Below, piece after piece: positions 4,485-64,000 of a DNA stretch of 64,000 nt. The first letter of the stretch is position 1. Every line of letters starts with the position of its first letter. The stretch is from the IMG/VR virus record IMGVR_UViG_3300018049_000017, positions 1-64,000 of that record; one strand, written 5' to 3'. A model generated the notes under the pieces. That model did not search any database, was not told the DNA's origin, and was given only the letters and a program-made list of their open reading frames with translations. The stretch is from a virus. Position numbers and translations under genes: made by a program.

Positions 4485-5256
4485 AGTAGACGATAGTTAC
4501 GAAAGAATAAAGTTACTTAAAGACGCTTGTAAAGGAGAAACTATATACATTACTACTCCTGGTCCTTCCTTGACTTCTCACAATAGAGATATATTAGTAG
4601 AAAAACTAAAAGATAAGATAGTTCTTGCATGTAAGCAATCATATAATTACGTTAAAGAAGTTGCCACCTTTCATCTAATGTCAGCCTATGGATACCAACC
4701 TTATGATTACTACTCAGATGATACTATAGTTCATTGGCAGCTTACTGCTATGAATGTACCAGGTGAGTTACAAAGAATAAAACAGGAATGGAAACATAAA
4801 GCAGATATAATGATTCCATGTTACTCTACTCCTTGGGTTGATATGTATAACACTACGGCATTTAGTAGACGATTTGATCAATTCGAATCATACAGTGAAG
4901 GAAAGATTATTTGGGGACCTGGTATAATGTATGAATCAGGTATTCCTTTAGCTATGCATTTAGGAGCTAAAGAAATAGTTACTATAGGATGGGATATTGG
5001 AGACTTATCTAAATTTGAAAGTGAAAAAGGATACAAATTAGGAGATGACGATTGGAGAAAAGAGCATGCTGAGGATTTATATGCTGAAGGAGTGCATGCT
5101 GGAGCAGGACCTGATTATGAAGAATTAAAAGAGACTATCGATAGCACGAAAGAAATGTACGATTATTTCTTGGAAAAGGGAATTAAATTTCGTATATTAT
5201 CTAATACCAGCCCTGCTGATGGTAGATTTAAACGTATTACTATAGATGAGTTATAA
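4459..5256 (+). CDS. DUF115/sialyltransferase-fold-like protein
   Basis: The 265-residue protein resembles the product at 1240-1944. It has a short strand and loop, IYITTPGPSLTSHNRDIL (residues 29-46), then a central GPGIMYESGIPLAMHLGAKEIVTIGWDIGD segment, where the last part matches the GFDG-type core. This is the architecture of DUF115-like proteins that attach sugars to surface molecules. It is likely to be one of several sugar-transfer genes in this operon. A possible internal promoter (TTG-N20-TATATTAT) lies at 5170-5200 within its 3' end but lacks other conserved bases. Confidence 0.5.
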   Translation: MELKKLISKVDDSYERIKLLKDACKGETIYITTPGPSLTSHNRDILVEKLKDKIVLACKQSYNYVKEVATFHLMSAYGYQPYDYYSDDTIVHWQLTAMNVPGELQRIKQEWKHKADIMIPCYSTPWVDMYNTTAFSRRFDQFESYSEGKIIWGPGIMYESGIPLAMHLGAKEIVTIGWDIGDLSKFESEKGYKLGDDDWRKEHAEDLYAEGVHAGAGPDYEELKETIDSTKEMYDYFLEKGIKFRILSNTSPADGRFKRITIDEL

Positions 5257-6061
5257 ATTAGCAATATACATAAAAACTTATAGTGGAGATTTTTTAAGGA
5301 TTAAAAACCTTTTGAGATCAATACAAGAATTTAATATTGATGATATACCTGTATTTATATCTTGTCCTAGAGATCAATCTGGTTCTCTATTCTCAATGAT
5401 TGGTAAAGAAGGATATACTTATATACCTGATGAGTATATATTTACTCCTTCATATAGAATACCCGGATGGGAAGAACAAATGCTTGTTAAATTAAATGCT
5501 TGGAAAAACATCGATGCTGACAACCTTCTTATTATAGATTCAGATGCTGAGTTTGTTAGGGAGTTTTACTTAGATGATTTTATAGCATACGATAATGTAC
5601 CTTATACTATCATGCATGAGAATAAGCAAGTATCAGAATATGAGGCAGCTCTCAAGGGTGGTGATTATTCTAAGACTGGGTATGTTAAAGCAGTATTAGC
5701 CTACAGAGAGTTGTTTGGAGGTAAATCTAAGAAGATATACGATTATGGACCTAATCCTCACTTATGGTCTAGGAAAGTATTAGAAAGCTTCGAAGAAAAT
5801 TATCTTAAGTATAATGACTTAACTATGGAAAACTTCTGTTTTGGTATAAAGAGTCAGTATGATATACATTTTAGAGAGACGTTAACATACGGAGAGTATC
5901 TTTTAGCTGGTAGAGCAATAGATATAGTTCCTTGTGGGCCTTTCTTTAAAACGTATCATTGGAAAGAGATGTGGGACTTTGAAGAAGGTACTGGGTTAGA
6001 GTTAAAAGATAATATAAAGAAAAGTTATTTAGGTATCATTAAACAATCTAATTGGTCATGA
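5246..6061 (+). CDS. Glycosyltransferase-like protein (GT-A type)
   Basis: The 271-residue protein starts with a short hydrophobic strand IYIKTYSGDFLRIKNLLRSI and has LLIIDSDAEFV near residue 92, a DxD-like metal-binding motif of GT-A glycosyltransferases. Later PNPHLWSRKVLESF and a Tyr-rich region fit the DUF6492-type group. The overall length matches that group. It overlaps both neighbours (11 and 4 bases) in the glycan operon. The donor and acceptor sugars are unknown. Confidence 0.6.
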   Translation: MSYKLAIYIKTYSGDFLRIKNLLRSIQEFNIDDIPVFISCPRDQSGSLFSMIGKEGYTYIPDEYIFTPSYRIPGWEEQMLVKLNAWKNIDADNLLIIDSDAEFVREFYLDDFIAYDNVPYTIMHENKQVSEYEAALKGGDYSKTGYVKAVLAYRELFGGKSKKIYDYGPNPHLWSRKVLESFEENYLKYNDLTMENFCFGIKSQYDIHFRETLTYGEYLLAGRAIDIVPCGPFFKTYHWKEMWDFEEGTGLELKDNIKKSYLGIIKQSNWS

Positions 6062-10226: not shown

Positions 10227-10795
10227 ATTACAATGTAATAGTTTTATCGGTGAAGACAGATGTAGAGAGAAGAAAGCATATTACTAAAGTGTGTAAAACT
10301 TTGAAGCTTAATTTTGACTTCTTTAATGCTTTAACTCCAGTTGATTTAGATGATAGTTTAATAAATACATACTATAGCAACATGGATGTATATCAATATC
10401 CTGAATTAAATCATAAGGCAGTATTTGCTACATTTGAAAGTCATAAAGAAATATTAAAGACAATCTATACGAGTAAACAAAACACATTAGTTTTAGAAGA
10501 CGATTTAGTACCGATCAGGGACTATAATTTTACTGATATAGATTTCAGCTCTTTTGACCTACTTCAATTAATGTCTGAAATTAGTTGCTGTTATCACTTT
10601 GTGAATTGGATATCAGCTGGGTTCCTTTATCAGAAATTTAATTCAAAAGATTATTATCCTACACAGGCTTTTGATTGGGAGTTACATAAATTAAGAAACG
10701 AATTTAATATACAGACAGTAAACGAACCTGTCTTTGAACAAACAAATAATTTTAAATCACATTTAGCACCTTATGGTTACAAAAAAATTCATTAG
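10223..10795 (+). CDS. Family 25 glycosyltransferase-like protein
   Basis: The 190-residue protein opens NVIVLSVKTDVERRKHITKV, the GT25 (LPS-type) pattern of a V-I-x-L strand followed by R-R. FFNALTP and ATFESHKEIL (GxxxSH) follow, then TLVLEDDLVP with the LEDD metal motif. It is short for the family; the C-terminal acceptor part is reduced. A longer GT25 protein occurs at 55407-56285. It probably transfers galactose or a related sugar to a surface glycan. Confidence 0.75.
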   Translation: MNYNVIVLSVKTDVERRKHITKVCKTLKLNFDFFNALTPVDLDDSLINTYYSNMDVYQYPELNHKAVFATFESHKEILKTIYTSKQNTLVLEDDLVPIRDYNFTDIDFSSFDLLQLMSEISCCYHFVNWISAGFLYQKFNSKDYYPTQAFDWELHKLRNEFNIQTVNEPVFEQTNNFKSHLAPYGYKKIH

Positions 10796-11555
10796 AATAC
10801 TCTGGGGGAGTTTTGATAGATATAAAAATCAAATCGTTGAAGCTAGAAAAGATAACTTAAACGAAACAGTAGTGGTGTGGGGAGAAGATAATGCTAATTT
10901 ATTAGATGAATTAGGATACGATTGTCATTTAGTAAGCAACTCAGCTTATGATCCTTCTATAGCTGCTGATCATACATTTAAAGATCATAGAAGCTTGATA
11001 CACAAAATAGAAGGATTAAAAATAGCATTAGACTTACTGTATGATGAGATAGTATTTGTCGATTGGGACTGTAGAAAAGTAAAAGAGATAGATGATAACT
11101 TTTGGAATTTATTAAGACAAAAAGAATCTAAGCTTCAAGTTCCTCTTTACACATACCCTAAAAAAGCATTTAACATAATGCTAGAAGATACAAAAAGAGA
11201 ACCTCATATAAATAATTTCATCAAAAAGTTAAAAGAGTATATAGAAAAATATAGCTTTGAATATCAGACTAATCATATAATCCCTAATACTGGTTTTATG
11301 TACTGTAATGATATTACTATCATAGATAAGTTACTAGAAATTATTAAGGCTAATGATCTTCAAACTGTACCTGACGAACTATCAGTATTTTTATACGGGC
11401 AGCATTTAGGTTTAAATCAGTTTATTAAAGAAATAGATCCATTAGTTATAGGTGGTAAGGTTCATGGATACGAATGGTGGAATAATATAGAAGATTCATT
11501 TGATAAATACAAAGCATCGTTCGGTAATAAAACTAATTACTTTATACATTACTAA
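10773..11555 (+). CDS. Glycosyltransferase-like protein, paralogue of 31060-31770
   Basis: The 260-residue protein shares a run of motifs with the minus-strand product at 31060-31770: an RILWG start, VVVWGEDN...LGYDC, EIVFVDWDCRKV (the DWD acts as a DxD site), VPLYTYPKKAF and a final NYFIHY. The order and spacing agree, so the two are paralogues on opposite strands. The GT-A type DxD and the context suggest sugar transfer. No named family is certain. Confidence 0.6.
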   Translation: MVTKKFIRILWGSFDRYKNQIVEARKDNLNETVVVWGEDNANLLDELGYDCHLVSNSAYDPSIAADHTFKDHRSLIHKIEGLKIALDLLYDEIVFVDWDCRKVKEIDDNFWNLLRQKESKLQVPLYTYPKKAFNIMLEDTKREPHINNFIKKLKEYIEKYSFEYQTNHIIPNTGFMYCNDITIIDKLLEIIKANDLQTVPDELSVFLYGQHLGLNQFIKEIDPLVIGGKVHGYEWWNNIEDSFDKYKASFGNKTNYFIHY

Positions 11556-53479: not shown

Positions 53480-53980
53480 ATGGATATGACACAACCTTCC
53501 TGGACTTTCCAGGGTAGGATCTTCAACGACATATCAGACTTCCCAGAAGATACTTATGGGTTCATTTATGAAGTGAGCCATAAACCTACAGGCCTAAAAT
53601 ATATTGGCAAGAAAGTCCTATACTTTGAGAGAAATAAAAGACTCGGTAAACGAGCATTAGAAGCTTTGAGAGAAGAAAGGAAAGCAAAAGGAATTGGAGG
53701 AAGAGTACCTTTAAAGCAAAAAATAAGAACTGAATCTGATTGGAAAGACTACTACGGGTCTCATCCTCAGATTATTAAGTTAGTTAAGGAGTCAACTGAT
53801 TTAAGAGAGAACTTTGAACGTAAGATTTTAGATTTAGTACCTAATAAGAAGCTTCTTACATATTTCGAGTGTAAGCACCTATTTATTAATGACGTACTAG
53901 AAACATTTAGTCATCAATATATAAATGACAATATTCTAGGAAAATTTTACAGAAAAGACTTTAACAATGAAGCTAACTGA
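53480..53980 (+). CDS. GIY-YIG-type endonuclease-like protein
   Basis: The 166-residue protein has YGFIYEVSHKPTGLKYIGKK (GIY-YIG pair: GFIY and KYIGKK), followed by KKVLYFERNKR, and later WKDYYGSHPQIIKLVKE and NFERKIL (Glu in helix). This fits the GIY-YIG family, as in phage Seg and DenA-type enzymes. It could be a homing or restriction-type nuclease; the gene sits directly after the fibre gene. The last 14 bases overlap a short CTS-leader gene. Confidence 0.7.
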   Translation: MDMTQPSWTFQGRIFNDISDFPEDTYGFIYEVSHKPTGLKYIGKKVLYFERNKRLGKRALEALREERKAKGIGGRVPLKQKIRTESDWKDYYGSHPQIIKLVKESTDLRENFERKILDLVPNKKLLTYFECKHLFINDVLETFSHQYINDNILGKFYRKDFNNEAN

Positions 53981-54218
53981 TATTTTACTTAACGAAGAAA
54001 AAAACTGCGGGTGTGGTCAAACACCTTGTAAGACTTATGGAGTTAACGAAGAGCTAGGAGTAGCTAAAAGAGGACTACAGGCAATCTTACATAAAGTAGG
54101 ACCAGAAGTTTTCGCTAAAATTATCATTAATGGTATAGAAGACGAAAATGATCAAGATGCTATTTTAGATGCTATTAGAAAAGTTAACATGGATCAGTTT
54201 GTACCAGATATATTTTAA
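53967..54218 (+). CDS. Small protein with capsid-targeting-like leader
   Basis: The 83-residue protein starts MKLTDILLNEEKNCGCG; the leader ends in LNE before E, similar to the T4 capsid-targeting type. It has a Cys group (NCGCGQTPC, residues 13-21) that might bind metal. The rest is helical and acidic. It may be an internal head protein. It is 3 bases from the next gene. Confidence 0.55.
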   Translation: MKLTDILLNEEKNCGCGQTPCKTYGVNEELGVAKRGLQAILHKVGPEVFAKIIINGIEDENDQDAILDAIRKVNMDQFVPDIF

Positions 54219-55406: not shown

Positions 55407-56285
55407 ATGAAACCAAGCGTACATCAATTCGGCGCTAGCGGTATATTCGTTATTAGCGATTCAAACAATATAGAAAGAAGACAAAGGTTTGTTGAAGACT
55501 GGAGTAATGTATCTAATTTTGATTATGAGTTTGTAGATGCTACTATGGGTAGCAGTATAGATGTTTCTAGTTTAATTAATGAAGGAAGACTTACTAAATT
55601 TTGGTGTGGTGAAGGAGGAGTAAGTAAAAACGTTATAGCTTGTTTTTTATCTCATAGAAAAGTGTGGAAAAGCATAAAAGATTTACCTCACGAAAACTAC
55701 TACTTAATTTTAGAAGATGATGTTAGGTTAACTCCCTATTTTTTAAACACAGCATTTAGCAACGGAGAATTTAAAAAAGTACTCAACAATATTCACAAAG
55801 AAGATATAAACTGTTTTTGGTGGGGTAGAGCTGACAATAAAGTAATAGGTAAACAGTATAACAAACACTTGAAAGTACCTGATGCTTTTATTGCACTAGG
55901 TGCTCATAGTTATATGATTACACCAGGGTTTGCAAACTACCTATACAATGAAAGTTTCAACATAAGCTGTCCAGCAGATGTTTTTATAGATTTACTGCTC
56001 TTAGGAATAAAAAGACATTACACACCAAACTTTTCATATATGAGACAAATGCAACATATGATTAAGGATAGATTTTTTCCTTTAGATCACAAATATAGAG
56101 TCTGGGGCAGTACTACTCAACCTGATTGGACTGACCATACCACTAGGGTTTATGAAGGGTTGTACAAGAACGTATCACCAGATATTAGAAAATTTATTAC
56201 TGATGCTTCTCAAGAATTCATTGCTGAATTTAAAAAAGGTATTTCTTTTAAGTTTGAGATATTTGAAGAGAAAGAGCTTTTATAA
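55407..56285 (+). CDS. Family 25 glycosyltransferase-like protein
   Basis: The 292-residue protein has the GT25 pattern: GIFVISDSNNIERRQRFVED (strand then R-R), VIACFLSHRKVWKSI (xxSHxxxW) and YLILEDDVRLTP (LEDD metal site), a middle with CFWWGRAD and later YMITPGFANYLY. It is longer than the GT25 protein at 10223. Its place after virion-associated genes rather than in the glycan operon suggests it may modify a virion protein or the host surface. Confidence 0.8.
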   Translation: MKPSVHQFGASGIFVISDSNNIERRQRFVEDWSNVSNFDYEFVDATMGSSIDVSSLINEGRLTKFWCGEGGVSKNVIACFLSHRKVWKSIKDLPHENYYLILEDDVRLTPYFLNTAFSNGEFKKVLNNIHKEDINCFWWGRADNKVIGKQYNKHLKVPDAFIALGAHSYMITPGFANYLYNESFNISCPADVFIDLLLLGIKRHYTPNFSYMRQMQHMIKDRFFPLDHKYRVWGSTTQPDWTDHTTRVYEGLYKNVSPDIRKFITDASQEFIAEFKKGISFKFEIFEEKELL

Positions 56286-56312: not shown

Positions 56313-56612
56313 ATGAAATTGACAAAAATTATATTATCTGAAAGTGTAAAAGCTAAGCTATCTAGTTTAAACTATAACGAGGTACATAAGCACCTTGGAG
56401 ATGGATTTTCTGCTCCTAATCCTGACGATAGTTCAAGACGTATTAATTCTGAAAATGATTGGGAGTCTTGGAAACAAAGAACTATAGAGCAATTTGGAGA
56501 TGTCGATATTGAAATAGACGATACTGCTGTTTGGTACGATAAAATAAAAATTATCGATCCTAAGTTTACAAAACAAAAAGATGACTACACCGCAGAAAAG
56601 CAGCTTGGTTAG
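56313..56612 (+). CDS. Protein with capsid-targeting-like leader, possible frameshifted end
   Basis: The 99-residue protein starts MKLTKIILSESVKAKLSSLN (leader ending LSE before S). The frame ends at TAG 56610-56612 (AEKQLG), but the -1 frame from about 56590 continues as AAWLDRERAAGRTSGLD to TAA at 56651-56653, which reads like a true C-terminus. A slip at GAAAAG (around 56594-56600) would join them. This could be programmed or a mutation. The middle (DWESWKQRTIEQFG) is helical and unrecognised. Confidence 0.5.
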   Translation: MKLTKIILSESVKAKLSSLNYNEVHKHLGDGFSAPNPDDSSRRINSENDWESWKQRTIEQFGDVDIEIDDTAVWYDKIKIIDPKFTKQKDDYTAEKQLG

Positions 56613-56659: not shown

Positions 56660-57088
56660 ATGAGACTATCACATGTTATATTAGGAGAGATTCTTTATTA
56701 CGATCCAGACTTTGAAAGAGAAGTAGATAAAATAAAAGATCTAGGAGGTAAATACCTCGGGTCAGGAGATTACGGGGCTGCATACTTATTAAATGGACGA
56801 GTCTACAAAGTCACTACTGACGAAATCGAATTAGAACACGCACATAAACTTAAAGGTAAAAAAACTAATAACTTTGCTCACATTTATGATGCAGAGTCAA
56901 TCACACCTAAACTTGGTATAATTCAAATGGAAGTACTAGGAGAATTTAAAGGTGAGATTCCGGAAGAATGGGTTGAAGCTGTAGAAGCAGAAGCAAAAAG
57001 AATGGGCATTAAACCAGATGAATTAGATATAAGACCTTCTAATATAATGGTGAATCAAAAAAATCACTTAAAATTAGTTGATATTTAA
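56660..57088 (+). CDS. Minimal protein-kinase-like protein with capsid-targeting-like leader
   Basis: The 142-residue protein starts MRLSHVILGE (leader, LGE). It then has a glycine loop GSGDYGAAY (residues 34-42), RVYKVTT with the phosphate-binding Lys50, a hinge IIQMEVLGE (88-95), a catalytic-loop-like DIRPSNIMV (D123, N128) and KLVDI with D141 (as in DFG) at the very end. So the N-lobe and the main catalytic residues of the protein-kinase fold are present in about half the usual length; the activation loop and C-lobe helices are missing. Its own promoter is not obvious. I infer that it may be injected to phosphorylate a host protein; it could also be inactive. Confidence 0.65.
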   Translation: MRLSHVILGEILYYDPDFEREVDKIKDLGGKYLGSGDYGAAYLLNGRVYKVTTDEIELEHAHKLKGKKTNNFAHIYDAESITPKLGIIQMEVLGEFKGEIPEEWVEAVEAEAKRMGIKPDELDIRPSNIMVNQKNHLKLVDI

Positions 57089-57108
57089 AAATATTCTTCT
57101 TATATTAT
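57078..57108 (+). promoter_or_regulatory. Bacteroidota-type promoter (TATATTAT)
   Basis: TTG at 57078-57080 (in the end of the kinase-like gene), 20-base spacer, TATATTAT at 57101-57108; ATG at 57133. The CTGC core is absent. It is placed to drive the primase gene. Confidence 0.65.
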
Positions 57109-58835: not shown

Positions 58836-59491
58836 GATATTTTATATTATTCTTCTTTGTTTCTCTTTTTACTAGCTGTGGTGTATATCAAATAAATACT
58901 ACACCTAAAGTAAAAATAAGCAAAGTACTAACTATAACCTCTACAGGAGATACTTTAGCAGTTCCTCTAAGAGATTTTCAAAAATTTAATTACAATAATG
59001 TTTTCGACAATTACAGATGGAATTTTAACTACGGCTTTAACTACTACAGTTGGGGAAACCCATACTTTGGATACAGTCCAAATTGGTATCGTCCAAACAG
59101 CTGGTATTTTAGAGATTGGTATTATACTCCTCCTATTTATAACTATAGTTTGGAGGTACCTCAAAATAACAAACCTAGAGTTTACGTAAAAGGAAGAAGA
59201 GGAAGTAATACAGACAGTAACAGGATAATTATAAAACCAAATAATAATAACAATGATCAAATTAGTGGACCTAATTTTAGAACGCCAAGATCGACCGAAG
59301 GCAGTAATAATGGCAGGAGGAGCTGGAGCGGGGAAGACATATTTGTTAAACCAATTGTCCCTAGACAGCCTCCCATTATTCAACCCGGACAAGTACGTAG
59401 AGGATCCCAACCACCCGTACTACAACAACCTAGGAGCAGCATCAAACCAGGTAGCCAAGGACGTAGCAAAGCAGGCAGAATCCAAGAGTAG
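58832..59491 (+). CDS. Predicted lipoprotein with overprinted C-terminal tail
   Basis: The 219-residue protein has a lipoprotein signal (YFILFFFVSLFTSC, Cys16), a Tyr/Trp/Asn-rich middle (residues 50-110, for example NYYSWGNPYFGYSPNWYRPN) and a low-complexity Arg/Ser/Pro/Gln tail. The final 80 residues (from about 59253) overlap the P-loop protein gene in another frame for 239 bases. The second frame is a functional Walker A protein, so the lipoprotein tail looks like an extension that arose by loss of a stop. Probably exported to the host envelope; role unknown. Confidence 0.65.
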   Translation: MRYFILFFFVSLFTSCGVYQINTTPKVKISKVLTITSTGDTLAVPLRDFQKFNYNNVFDNYRWNFNYGFNYYSWGNPYFGYSPNWYRPNSWYFRDWYYTPPIYNYSLEVPQNNKPRVYVKGRRGSNTDSNRIIIKPNNNNNDQISGPNFRTPRSTEGSNNGRRSWSGEDIFVKPIVPRQPPIIQPGQVRRGSQPPVLQQPRSSIKPGSQGRSKAGRIQE

Positions 59492-60191
59492 TTTTGTTTG
59501 GGATACAACTGCTTCTGGTAAAAGATTCCAAAAACAGCTAGACGATATCCTGGCTTTAGGATATGATGTCTACATGGTCATGGTGTACACACACCCAATG
59601 ATTTCTTACATTTCCAACTTTAAACTTAGAGGACGTAACACTCCATCATCAGCAGTATTTTCTACCTGGAGAAATGTTTATGAAAAAATAGACGATTACA
59701 ACAAAATACTAAATGGTAATTTATCTATATTCATAAACGATCACAATGGTAGGTTTAAAAAAGAAGTAGAAGGATTTGATACTGCTGCTAAAAACGGCAT
59801 AACAGGTATAAAAGACTACCTAAAAAGATACAATGAAGAAAACGGAGTAGAAGGATCTAGTTTTTTCAAACCTGTAGAATGGTCAGATGAGGAAGAGCAA
59901 GAATTCAATAAAGAGGTGGGTAGTGTTGATTGGGATAAGAATAACAGATCAGAAGATAAGGCTATAAAACAAGCTTTTTTAAAAGCATACAGGAAGAATG
60001 GAGTAGGACCTGGTCAGGATAAGCTCAGAGATGCAGTAAAAAAATATAGAGACAAAAAAGTAAAAGATGATGCAGATGCAGATGCAGTATTAGATAATAT
60101 TGCTGATATGATCTATAGTCCTAAGTTTCAAGCGAAATTAGAACATAGTACTCCGGCTGAAATAGATTCAAAAGTACAAGCATTTTTATGA
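59253..60191 (+). CDS. Zeta-toxin-like P-loop kinase with capsid-targeting-like leader
   Basis: The 312-residue protein starts MIKLVDLILERQDRPKAVIM (leader ending ILE), then the P-loop MAGGAGAGKTYLLN (residues 20-33), FNPDKYVED (Asp), SSFVWDTTASGKRFQ (DTT, the zeta-toxin-like second motif) and a middle YDVYMVMVYTHP. This is the layout of zeta-toxin and related small P-loop kinases. The C-terminal 130 residues are acidic and helical. The start lies inside the previous gene; no later in-frame ATG precedes the P-loop except Met20. I infer a host-targeting kinase delivered with the phage; not proven. Confidence 0.65.
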   Translation: MIKLVDLILERQDRPKAVIMAGGAGAGKTYLLNQLSLDSLPLFNPDKYVEDPNHPYYNNLGAASNQVAKDVAKQAESKSSFVWDTTASGKRFQKQLDDILALGYDVYMVMVYTHPMISYISNFKLRGRNTPSSAVFSTWRNVYEKIDDYNKILNGNLSIFINDHNGRFKKEVEGFDTAAKNGITGIKDYLKRYNEENGVEGSSFFKPVEWSDEEEQEFNKEVGSVDWDKNNRSEDKAIKQAFLKAYRKNGVGPGQDKLRDAVKKYRDKKVKDDADADAVLDNIADMIYSPKFQAKLEHSTPAEIDSKVQAFL

Positions 60192-63381: not shown

Positions 63382-63584
63382 TGGCAAGCAATAAAATAAA
63401 ACCTAGTACCAAAGAATATAAAAAAGATAAAAATGGTAAAATGACCAATAACTGGTCATGGAAACACTATACAGTAAGTAATACTAAAACTGAAGAATTA
63501 AAATCGTTATACACTAATTCAAATTATAGTAAGAAAAAGAAAATGATTCTTAAAGAACTTACTAAGAGGAATGTAGCAGTATGA
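63381..63584 (+). CDS. Small basic hypothetical protein
   Basis: The 67-residue protein is very Lys-rich (TKEYKKDKNGKMTNNWSWKH; NYSKKKKMILKELTKRNVAV) with a short aromatic motif. The stop overlaps the next start (ATGA). It is unknown; charge suggests nucleic-acid binding. Confidence 0.55.
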   Translation: MASNKIKPSTKEYKKDKNGKMTNNWSWKHYTVSNTKTEELKSLYTNSNYSKKKKMILKELTKRNVAV

Positions 63585-64000
63585 AACTAACACAGCTTAT
63601 ACTTGAAGGTTTATCCTATAAAGTACCTAACTTCGATTACGAATGGGAAGAAGCTGTACGTTATCCTGAATTTAAAAAATTAGGTAAACACGATTGGATA
63701 GATCTAGCTACTAAAGGTAGAGAGGTAACTATCACATCTGCAAAAGGTATTAACAATACTGATGCTAATAATCCTAAAGCTTTTAACTCTTTAAACAAAG
63801 ATAAGCGAGAAAGAACTTTAGCACAAATACAATCAGGCACAGTTGAAATGCCTATCGTTGCCAAATACCCAGATGGATATAAAGAATTATTAGGAGGTAA
63901 TACTAGACTTACTGCTTTAATGGCAAAGAATGGTAAAGCTACTATCTGGATGTTTGATGTACCGGAAGATATATTAGATGAAAACTACGCCGACGATAAA
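63581..64000 (+). CDS. ParB/sulfiredoxin-fold-like protein with capsid-targeting-like leader (3' end outside window)
   Basis: The frame is open to the window end (140 residues visible). It starts MKLTQLILEGLSYKVPNFDY (leader ending ILE before G). Later GTVEMPIVAKYPDGYKELLG and GGNTRLTALMAKNGKATIWM match the ParB nuclease-like domain (GxxRxxA and VxxMPIV). The 3' part is missing. ParB-like proteins of this kind are common in marine T4-type phages. The leader suggests a packaged protein. Confidence 0.7.
   Translation, partial: MKLTQLILEGLSYKVPNFDYEWEEAVRYPEFKKLGKHDWIDLATKGREVTITSAKGINNTDANNPKAFNSLNKDKRERTLAQIQSGTVEMPIVAKYPDGYKELLGGNTRLTALMAKNGKATIWMFDVPEDILDENYADDK

Follow-up and report, generated by a model that had tools for sequence, protein, structure and literature searches.

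A conserved miniature kinase-fold protein with a candidate head-targeting leader in T4-like phages of Flavobacteria-type bacteria

The DNA analyzed here, referred to as the window, is a 64,000-nucleotide stretch of a virus contig of 67,997 bases. The open reading frame at positions 56660–57088 encodes a protein of 142 residues, hereafter the mini-kinase, whose translation (residues 1–142) reads MRLSHVILGE followed by ILYYDPDFEREVDKIKDLGGKYLGSGDYGAAYLLNGRVYKV...LDIRPSNIMVNQKNHLKLVDI, with the stop codon directly after I142. These limits and this length, given in a preliminary description of the locus, proved exact on re-reading. Structural (tail-region) genes lie on the 5′ side of the mini-kinase gene, and genes for a primase (Toprim) and a PD-(D/E)XK nuclease lie on its 3′ side. 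A glycosyltransferase family 25 gene (window 55407–56285, Pfam E 4.8e-17) sits beside the tail genes, in a slot occupied by different genes in other relatives. The features considered below are the following.

56313–56612, plus strand: gene 5′ of the mini-kinase that carries a leader (MKLTKIILSE...), a "cargo" slot of varying content, frameshifted in the window
56660–57088, plus strand: mini-kinase gene, ATG to TAA, 142 residues, with homologues and a dN/dS of about 0.1
56660–56689, plus strand: leader MRLSHVILGE, residues 1–10, a putative capsid-targeting sequence with predicted cleavage after E10
56759–56776, plus strand: glycine-rich loop G34-S-G-D-Y-G39, with strands at residues 31–35 and 39–44
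56807–56809, plus strand: K50, the β3 lysine, VAIK-type
56828–56830, plus strand: E57, in an αC-like helix (residues 55–64), candidate ion-pair partner of K50
57026–57043, plus strand: catalytic loop D123-I-R-P-S-N128
57080–57082, plus strand: D141, the DFG-like metal-binding Asp
57097–57108, plus strand: TTCTTATATTAT, a promoter-like element between the kinase stop and the primase start, proposed from position and conservation
5189, 13674, 18192, 20366, 23353, 33698 and 61280: further window copies of TTN[GT]TATATT, lying, together with the copy at 57097–57108, 26–57 nt 5′ of open reading frames

Six scans of viral contigs recovered more than 200 loci encoding homologues of the mini-kinase. 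Family members come from marine contigs (the marine clade, which includes the protein of the window), from a freshwater clade and from Flavobacterium phage immuto, and the phages that carry them are T4-like and have Flavobacteria-type hosts of marine and fresh waters. Clear relatives in named phages are confined to four records of immuto (44% identity, labelled "hypothetical protein"). Beyond immuto, named phages gave only weak T7-type and chance-level matches; no cellular relative was found in genome contigs, an NCBIfam search returned no match of note, and PADLOC gave nothing beyond a weak match to mad6 (E 0.024) in the region of the catalytic loop.

All closed homologous open reading frames (230/230) stop exactly one residue past the DFG-like Asp. 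Because overlapping fetches of the same contig were counted repeatedly in this number, we also give the number of distinct C-terminal 120-mers among them, which is 97. The first 90 distinct sequences are 142–147 residues long, with the exception of one cut by a contig end, and the median dN/dS of 0.099 (336 pairs) indicates purifying selection. The DNA 3′ of the mini-kinase stop is non-coding in most loci, and in some immuto-type loci the stop reaches into the following gene or adjoins it without a gap. The size, described at the outset as far below that of a normal kinase, is a conserved minimal length, and no homologue running on past the position of residue 142 was found. A length so short for a kinase might suggest the remnant of a full-length enzyme truncated by mutation, frameshift or assembly error, an explanation rendered extremely improbable by the shared end residue, the strength of purifying selection and the nature of the 3′ DNA. 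Truncation, frameshift and read-through were ruled out as origins of the common end, as no coding continuation was found. A split kinase with its C-lobe encoded in an adjoining gene was likewise rejected: no constant C-lobe partner was seen among the neighbours in 19 loci, where the upstream gene varies between several unrelated families of leader-bearing proteins and a primase or further leader genes follow downstream.

The glycine-rich loop, K50, the D-x4-N catalytic loop and D141 are all present in the order first reported, and these positions recur in 90 distinct homologues. Residues G36, D37, Y38, G39, K50, E57, N128, M130 and D141 are invariant in this set, with C-terminal positions counted over 89 sequences since one of the 90 is cut. 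K50 falls within a segment aligned with the glycine loop and K93 of T7 gp0.7. Position 123 separates the clades, being D in all 70 covered marine-type sequences and S, L or R in all 19 freshwater-type sequences. At position 125, which corresponds to PKA Lys168, the freshwater-type sequences devoid of D123 keep K or R, and R125 is replaced by I, V or T in part of the marine-type sequences. In one subclade (L222, L225 and L226, at 5001–5438), the loop has lost its first glycine to another residue and contains a 3-residue insert ahead of SGDYG.

An AlphaFold2 model of the mini-kinase, computed from a 50-sequence alignment, has a pLDDT of 88.9 and a pTM of 0.81. It comprises a helix (residues 16–27), strands β1–β3 (31–35, 39–44 and 47–52), the αC-like helix, strands β4–β5 (75–82 and 85–90), an αE-like helix (102–114), the catalytic loop and strands β7–β8 (129–131 and 137–139), the kinase names of these elements being our own assignment. 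At E ≤ 0.001, a Foldseek comparison of the window protein with the PDB gave 291 matches. The best 50 of these are all protein kinases, pseudokinases or complexes with one. Query-normalized TM-scores of about 0.42–0.59 are consistent with a preserved core and a changed arrangement of the lobes in the model. A model of a freshwater-clade member (pLDDT 87.4) gives the same kinase-like picture, with PDB matches likewise. The structure prediction and fold comparison called for by the preliminary description thus support a confident kinase fold. Compared with PDB sequences, the family profile places kinases on top, collinear over residues 32–142 and individually weak (E about 0.07). The Pfam Pkinase model (PF00069) matches weakly over residues 123–141 with 12.9 bits, below its curated cut-off of 31.7, and the individual family-model matches are all under curated cut-offs. 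The N-lobe, glycine loop, β3 Lys, D-x4-N and metal Asp on β8 expected of the protein kinase superfamily are present, and D123 is lacking from the freshwater clade. The initial view that the C-lobe is missing stands for αD, the activation segment and αF–αI, but not for the αE-like helix, the catalytic loop and β7/β8, which are retained.

Profile comparisons connect this core to the kinases of T7-type phages. The T7 kinase PHROG, phrog_15752, is matched by 42 of 50 family members (best E 4.5e-5), and hhalign against ten T7-type kinases gives a probability of 96.5% (P about 1e-9) with an alignment collinear up to the last Asp; its score of 64.5 compares with a maximum of 23.4 in twenty column-shuffled controls. 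The gp0.7 protein of T7, a cytoplasmic kinase made early, has an active Ser/Thr kinase domain of ~30 kDa at its N-terminus (PMC4858673). Two of the ten T7-type relatives compared end soon after the Asp of the TDP motif, namely those of Caulobacter phage Cd1 (12 residues) and Citrobacter phage CR8 (21 residues). Because of these early ends, a phage kinase core lacking the activation segment and lower C-lobe appears in principle to have a precedent. Given the missing D-x-H and TDP signatures and the further reduction, we regard the mini-kinase, on the basis of these alignments, as a homologue of the T7-type gp0.7 catalytic core and not as a member in the strict sense. The family is the shortest form of the T7-type kinase core found in this comparison. 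The novelty first claimed for a minimal kinase has to be narrowed: a kinase without activation segment and lower C-lobe has T7-type precedent (Cd1 and CR8, the T7 kinase itself being active), whereas the extreme shortness, the fixed end point and their combination with a head-targeting-type leader in T4-like phages are the new features.

Binding of ATP and Mg is what selection seems to preserve in all clades. Catalysis is probably not conserved family-wide, because the freshwater clade lacks the catalytic Asp and keeps the ATP/Mg positions; phosphotransfer is plausible in the marine clade represented by the window. The family could also be composed of pseudokinases or ATP sensors that bind ATP-Mg and act by binding a partner, without phosphoryl transfer. 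This is a possible reading that we take seriously while not favouring it; the candidate partner would be a host kinase, RNA polymerase, a nuclease or a phage core protein. It would account for an all-clade invariant set (glycine loop, K50, E57, N128 and D141) devoted to nucleotide and metal binding, for the replacement of D123 in the freshwater-type sequences and for the absence of a substrate platform and activation segment from every member, and the freshwater model matches, within the PDB, the pseudokinase domains of TYK2 and JAK1 among others. Strict retention of D123 in the marine-type sequences would, however, be needless for a pure pseudokinase, and a related core supports activity in T7 gp0.7 (PMC4858673).

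The leader of the mini-kinase closes with [L/I]-x-E in 90/90 homologues, its last residue being number 9 or 10, and is disordered in the models, with pLDDT <50 at residues 1–11 for the window protein and 1–10 for the freshwater clade. The capsid-targeting sequences of T4 internal proteins are 10–19 residues long and are cut by gp21, with residues 8 and 10 mattering for processing (PMC9026906). The earlier suggestion that the leader may target the protein to the head finds support in this resemblance and in the constancy of its end. An S77 (gp21-type) prohead protease and a gp23-type capsid protein are encoded in 6/6 long relatives, the record of the window being a fragment. Of the 204 predicted genes of a 169,750-base relative (G003), 9 show the leader pattern. 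Eight of the nine are among the 30 genes of a 7.5–36 kb stretch with head genes (P 7e-7, an optimistic value because this region was picked after the leader matches were known); one leader gene is directly 3′ of the protease gene and another is 3′ of a head-completion gene. Genome-wide, the count of nine compares with a mean of 2.2 and a maximum of 7 after shuffling, which is a moderate excess.

The leader is also present on the gene just 5′ of the mini-kinase in 67 of 90 distinct versions. These upstream genes fall into three families, between whose mature parts BLAST shows no relationship, and one leader on three unrelated mature families is as expected for a modular tag. In the window, the upstream gene encodes 99 residues, versus 113 in the near-identical contigs L002–L004, and is without one base near 56595, either through a real frameshift or through an assembly error. 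Some immuto-type genomes have tandem leader-type paralogues 3′ of the mini-kinase. In the freshwater relative L151, three tandem paralogues starting MENTFDLKKFLVEN follow directly 3′ of the kinase from about base 5441 and resemble head internal proteins. Elsewhere in the window, the leader MIKLVDLILE precedes a Zeta-toxin-family P-loop kinase (59253–60191, Pfam E 1.6e-11; also at 10487–11422 in G003), which is a second candidate head-packaged enzyme. The leader MKLTDILLNE starts an 83-residue open reading frame at 53967–54218 with the cysteine-rich stretch NCGCGQTPC, and MKLTQLILEG starts one at 63581–64000 that runs off the end, its C-terminal part lying past the window.

A TTN[GT]TATATT element is found at most 150 nt 3′ of the mini-kinase in 175 of 205 loci, and similar elements also occur 15–60 nt upstream of other genes. 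Copies lie at most 60 nt upstream of 8 open reading frames in the window and of 15 in G003. The ORF-proximal copies of G003 are located at 8.4, 13.1 and 92–164 kb, with none in 13–92 kb, leaving the structural gene stretch free. Counts of the 12-mer with two mismatches in the window are not above chance, so the promoter reading draws only on position and conservation. We infer that the element may serve replication and accessory genes as their promoter, in which case the mini-kinase would close the preceding transcription unit.

These observations bear on where the mini-kinase might act. Synthesis and action of the kinase could both be confined to the cell, the leader being no packaging signal; we consider this unlikely but still of some weight. 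It would be in line with T7 gp0.7, which is early and cytoplasmic (PMC4858673) and is not packaged, and with a gene that adjoins primase and exonuclease genes. Virion detection of the mini-kinase is absent from the literature checked: no virion proteomics containing it was found, the flavophage study PMC7077304 contains neither proteomics nor a mention of immuto, and a search for minimal kinases or kinases inside phage heads returned nothing specific. A leader common to unrelated neighbours and to genes within the head cluster argues against an exclusively cellular role, as do its disordered stretch ending at [L/I]-x-E in every homologue and the promoter-like element that separates kinase from primase in most loci. 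Improbably, the protein could also be a head-core or internal structural protein with a merely inherited kinase fold, consistent with its leader, its gene position and the loss of D123 in one clade; strictly invariant ATP-site residues would be unexpected for a purely structural role. From its leader and that of its neighbours, the mini-kinase is likely packaged in the phage head.

Our preferred reading, to which we assign a probability of about 0.5, is that of a conserved miniature kinase-fold protein, homologous to the gp0.7 core, that would be packaged, injected and ATP-binding, with a marine form that phosphorylates. Its fold, homology, conserved end point, purifying selection and leader conservation are computed. 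Packaging, cleavage, injection, catalysis and targets are what we infer in the following course of events. The mini-kinase would be made late and drawn by its 10-residue N-terminal leader into the prohead core, where the gp21-type (S77) protease would trim it after E10 to about 132 residues. The trimmed protein would be packaged, then ejected together with the phage DNA, and in the host its glycine loop, K50, N128 and D141 would hold ATP-Mg. Members of the D123-bearing marine clade would most likely phosphorylate proteins of the host or the phage soon after infection begins, as T7 gp0.7 does, binding their substrate by a surface other than the absent activation segment and lower C-lobe. Taken to its full extent, such a course could make this the smallest natural active protein kinase, a mature enzyme of ~132 residues injected from a T4-like capsid and phosphorylating host proteins before phage gene expression, a proposal that we regard as doubtful and put forward tentatively.

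The activation segment and the αF helix are usually seen as organizers of the kinase domain. A strongly selected family that always stops at the metal-binding Asp provides a direct test of the minimal fold for ATP binding and phosphotransfer, and with the catalytic Asp missing from one clade and present in the other, kinase and pseudokinase can be compared within one natural family. Should the leader function in capsid targeting, kinases would join the enzymes delivered with DNA by T4-like phages, and the leader would aid in predicting other injected proteins of flavobacterial phages.

Among known systems, the T4 internal head proteins with capsid-targeting sequences (IPI–IPIII and Alt) share with the mini-kinase an N-terminal leader of ~10 residues and a hydrophobic-x-Glu cleavage-type end, and the mini-kinase phages are themselves T4-like with an S77 prohead protease. 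The T4 cargo is an ADP-ribosyltransferase or an internal protein, whereas the putative cargo of the mini-kinase phages would be a kinase fold. Canonical Hanks-type Ser/Thr kinases (PF00069) have the N-lobe strands, glycine loop, β3 Lys, catalytic loop and DFG-like Asp in the same order (Foldseek E about 2e-5), but the mini-kinase is without αD, the Phe-Gly of DFG, the activation segment, APE and αF–αI. BFVD structural neighbours include T7-type kinases and unannotated small phage proteins of unnamed function. One of the latter, A0A6J5KT55 (146 residues), aligns along almost the entire chain (TM 0.82, 39% identity) and very probably belongs to the family. The other small matches are longer (159–220 residues) and much more distant; the kinase-like folds predicted for several of them suggest a wider, unrecognized class of mini-kinases. 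T7-type gp0.7 is phage-encoded like the mini-kinase and has a core that is collinear from the glycine loop, by way of D-x4-N, up to the metal Asp, and the Cd1 and CR8 proteins likewise have no canonical activation segment or αF–αI. The gp0.7-type proteins compared are nevertheless 242–405 residues long, with N- and often C-terminal extensions, and most have a larger insertion separating β5 from the catalytic loop, a stretch mostly removed in the mini-kinase. D-x-H-x-x-N and I-T-D-P are invariant in all ten, whereas the mini-kinase has D-x4-N without the His, has no TDP and ends D-[I/V]. Finally, T7 gp0.7 is expressed early, whereas the mini-kinase bears a head-type leader.
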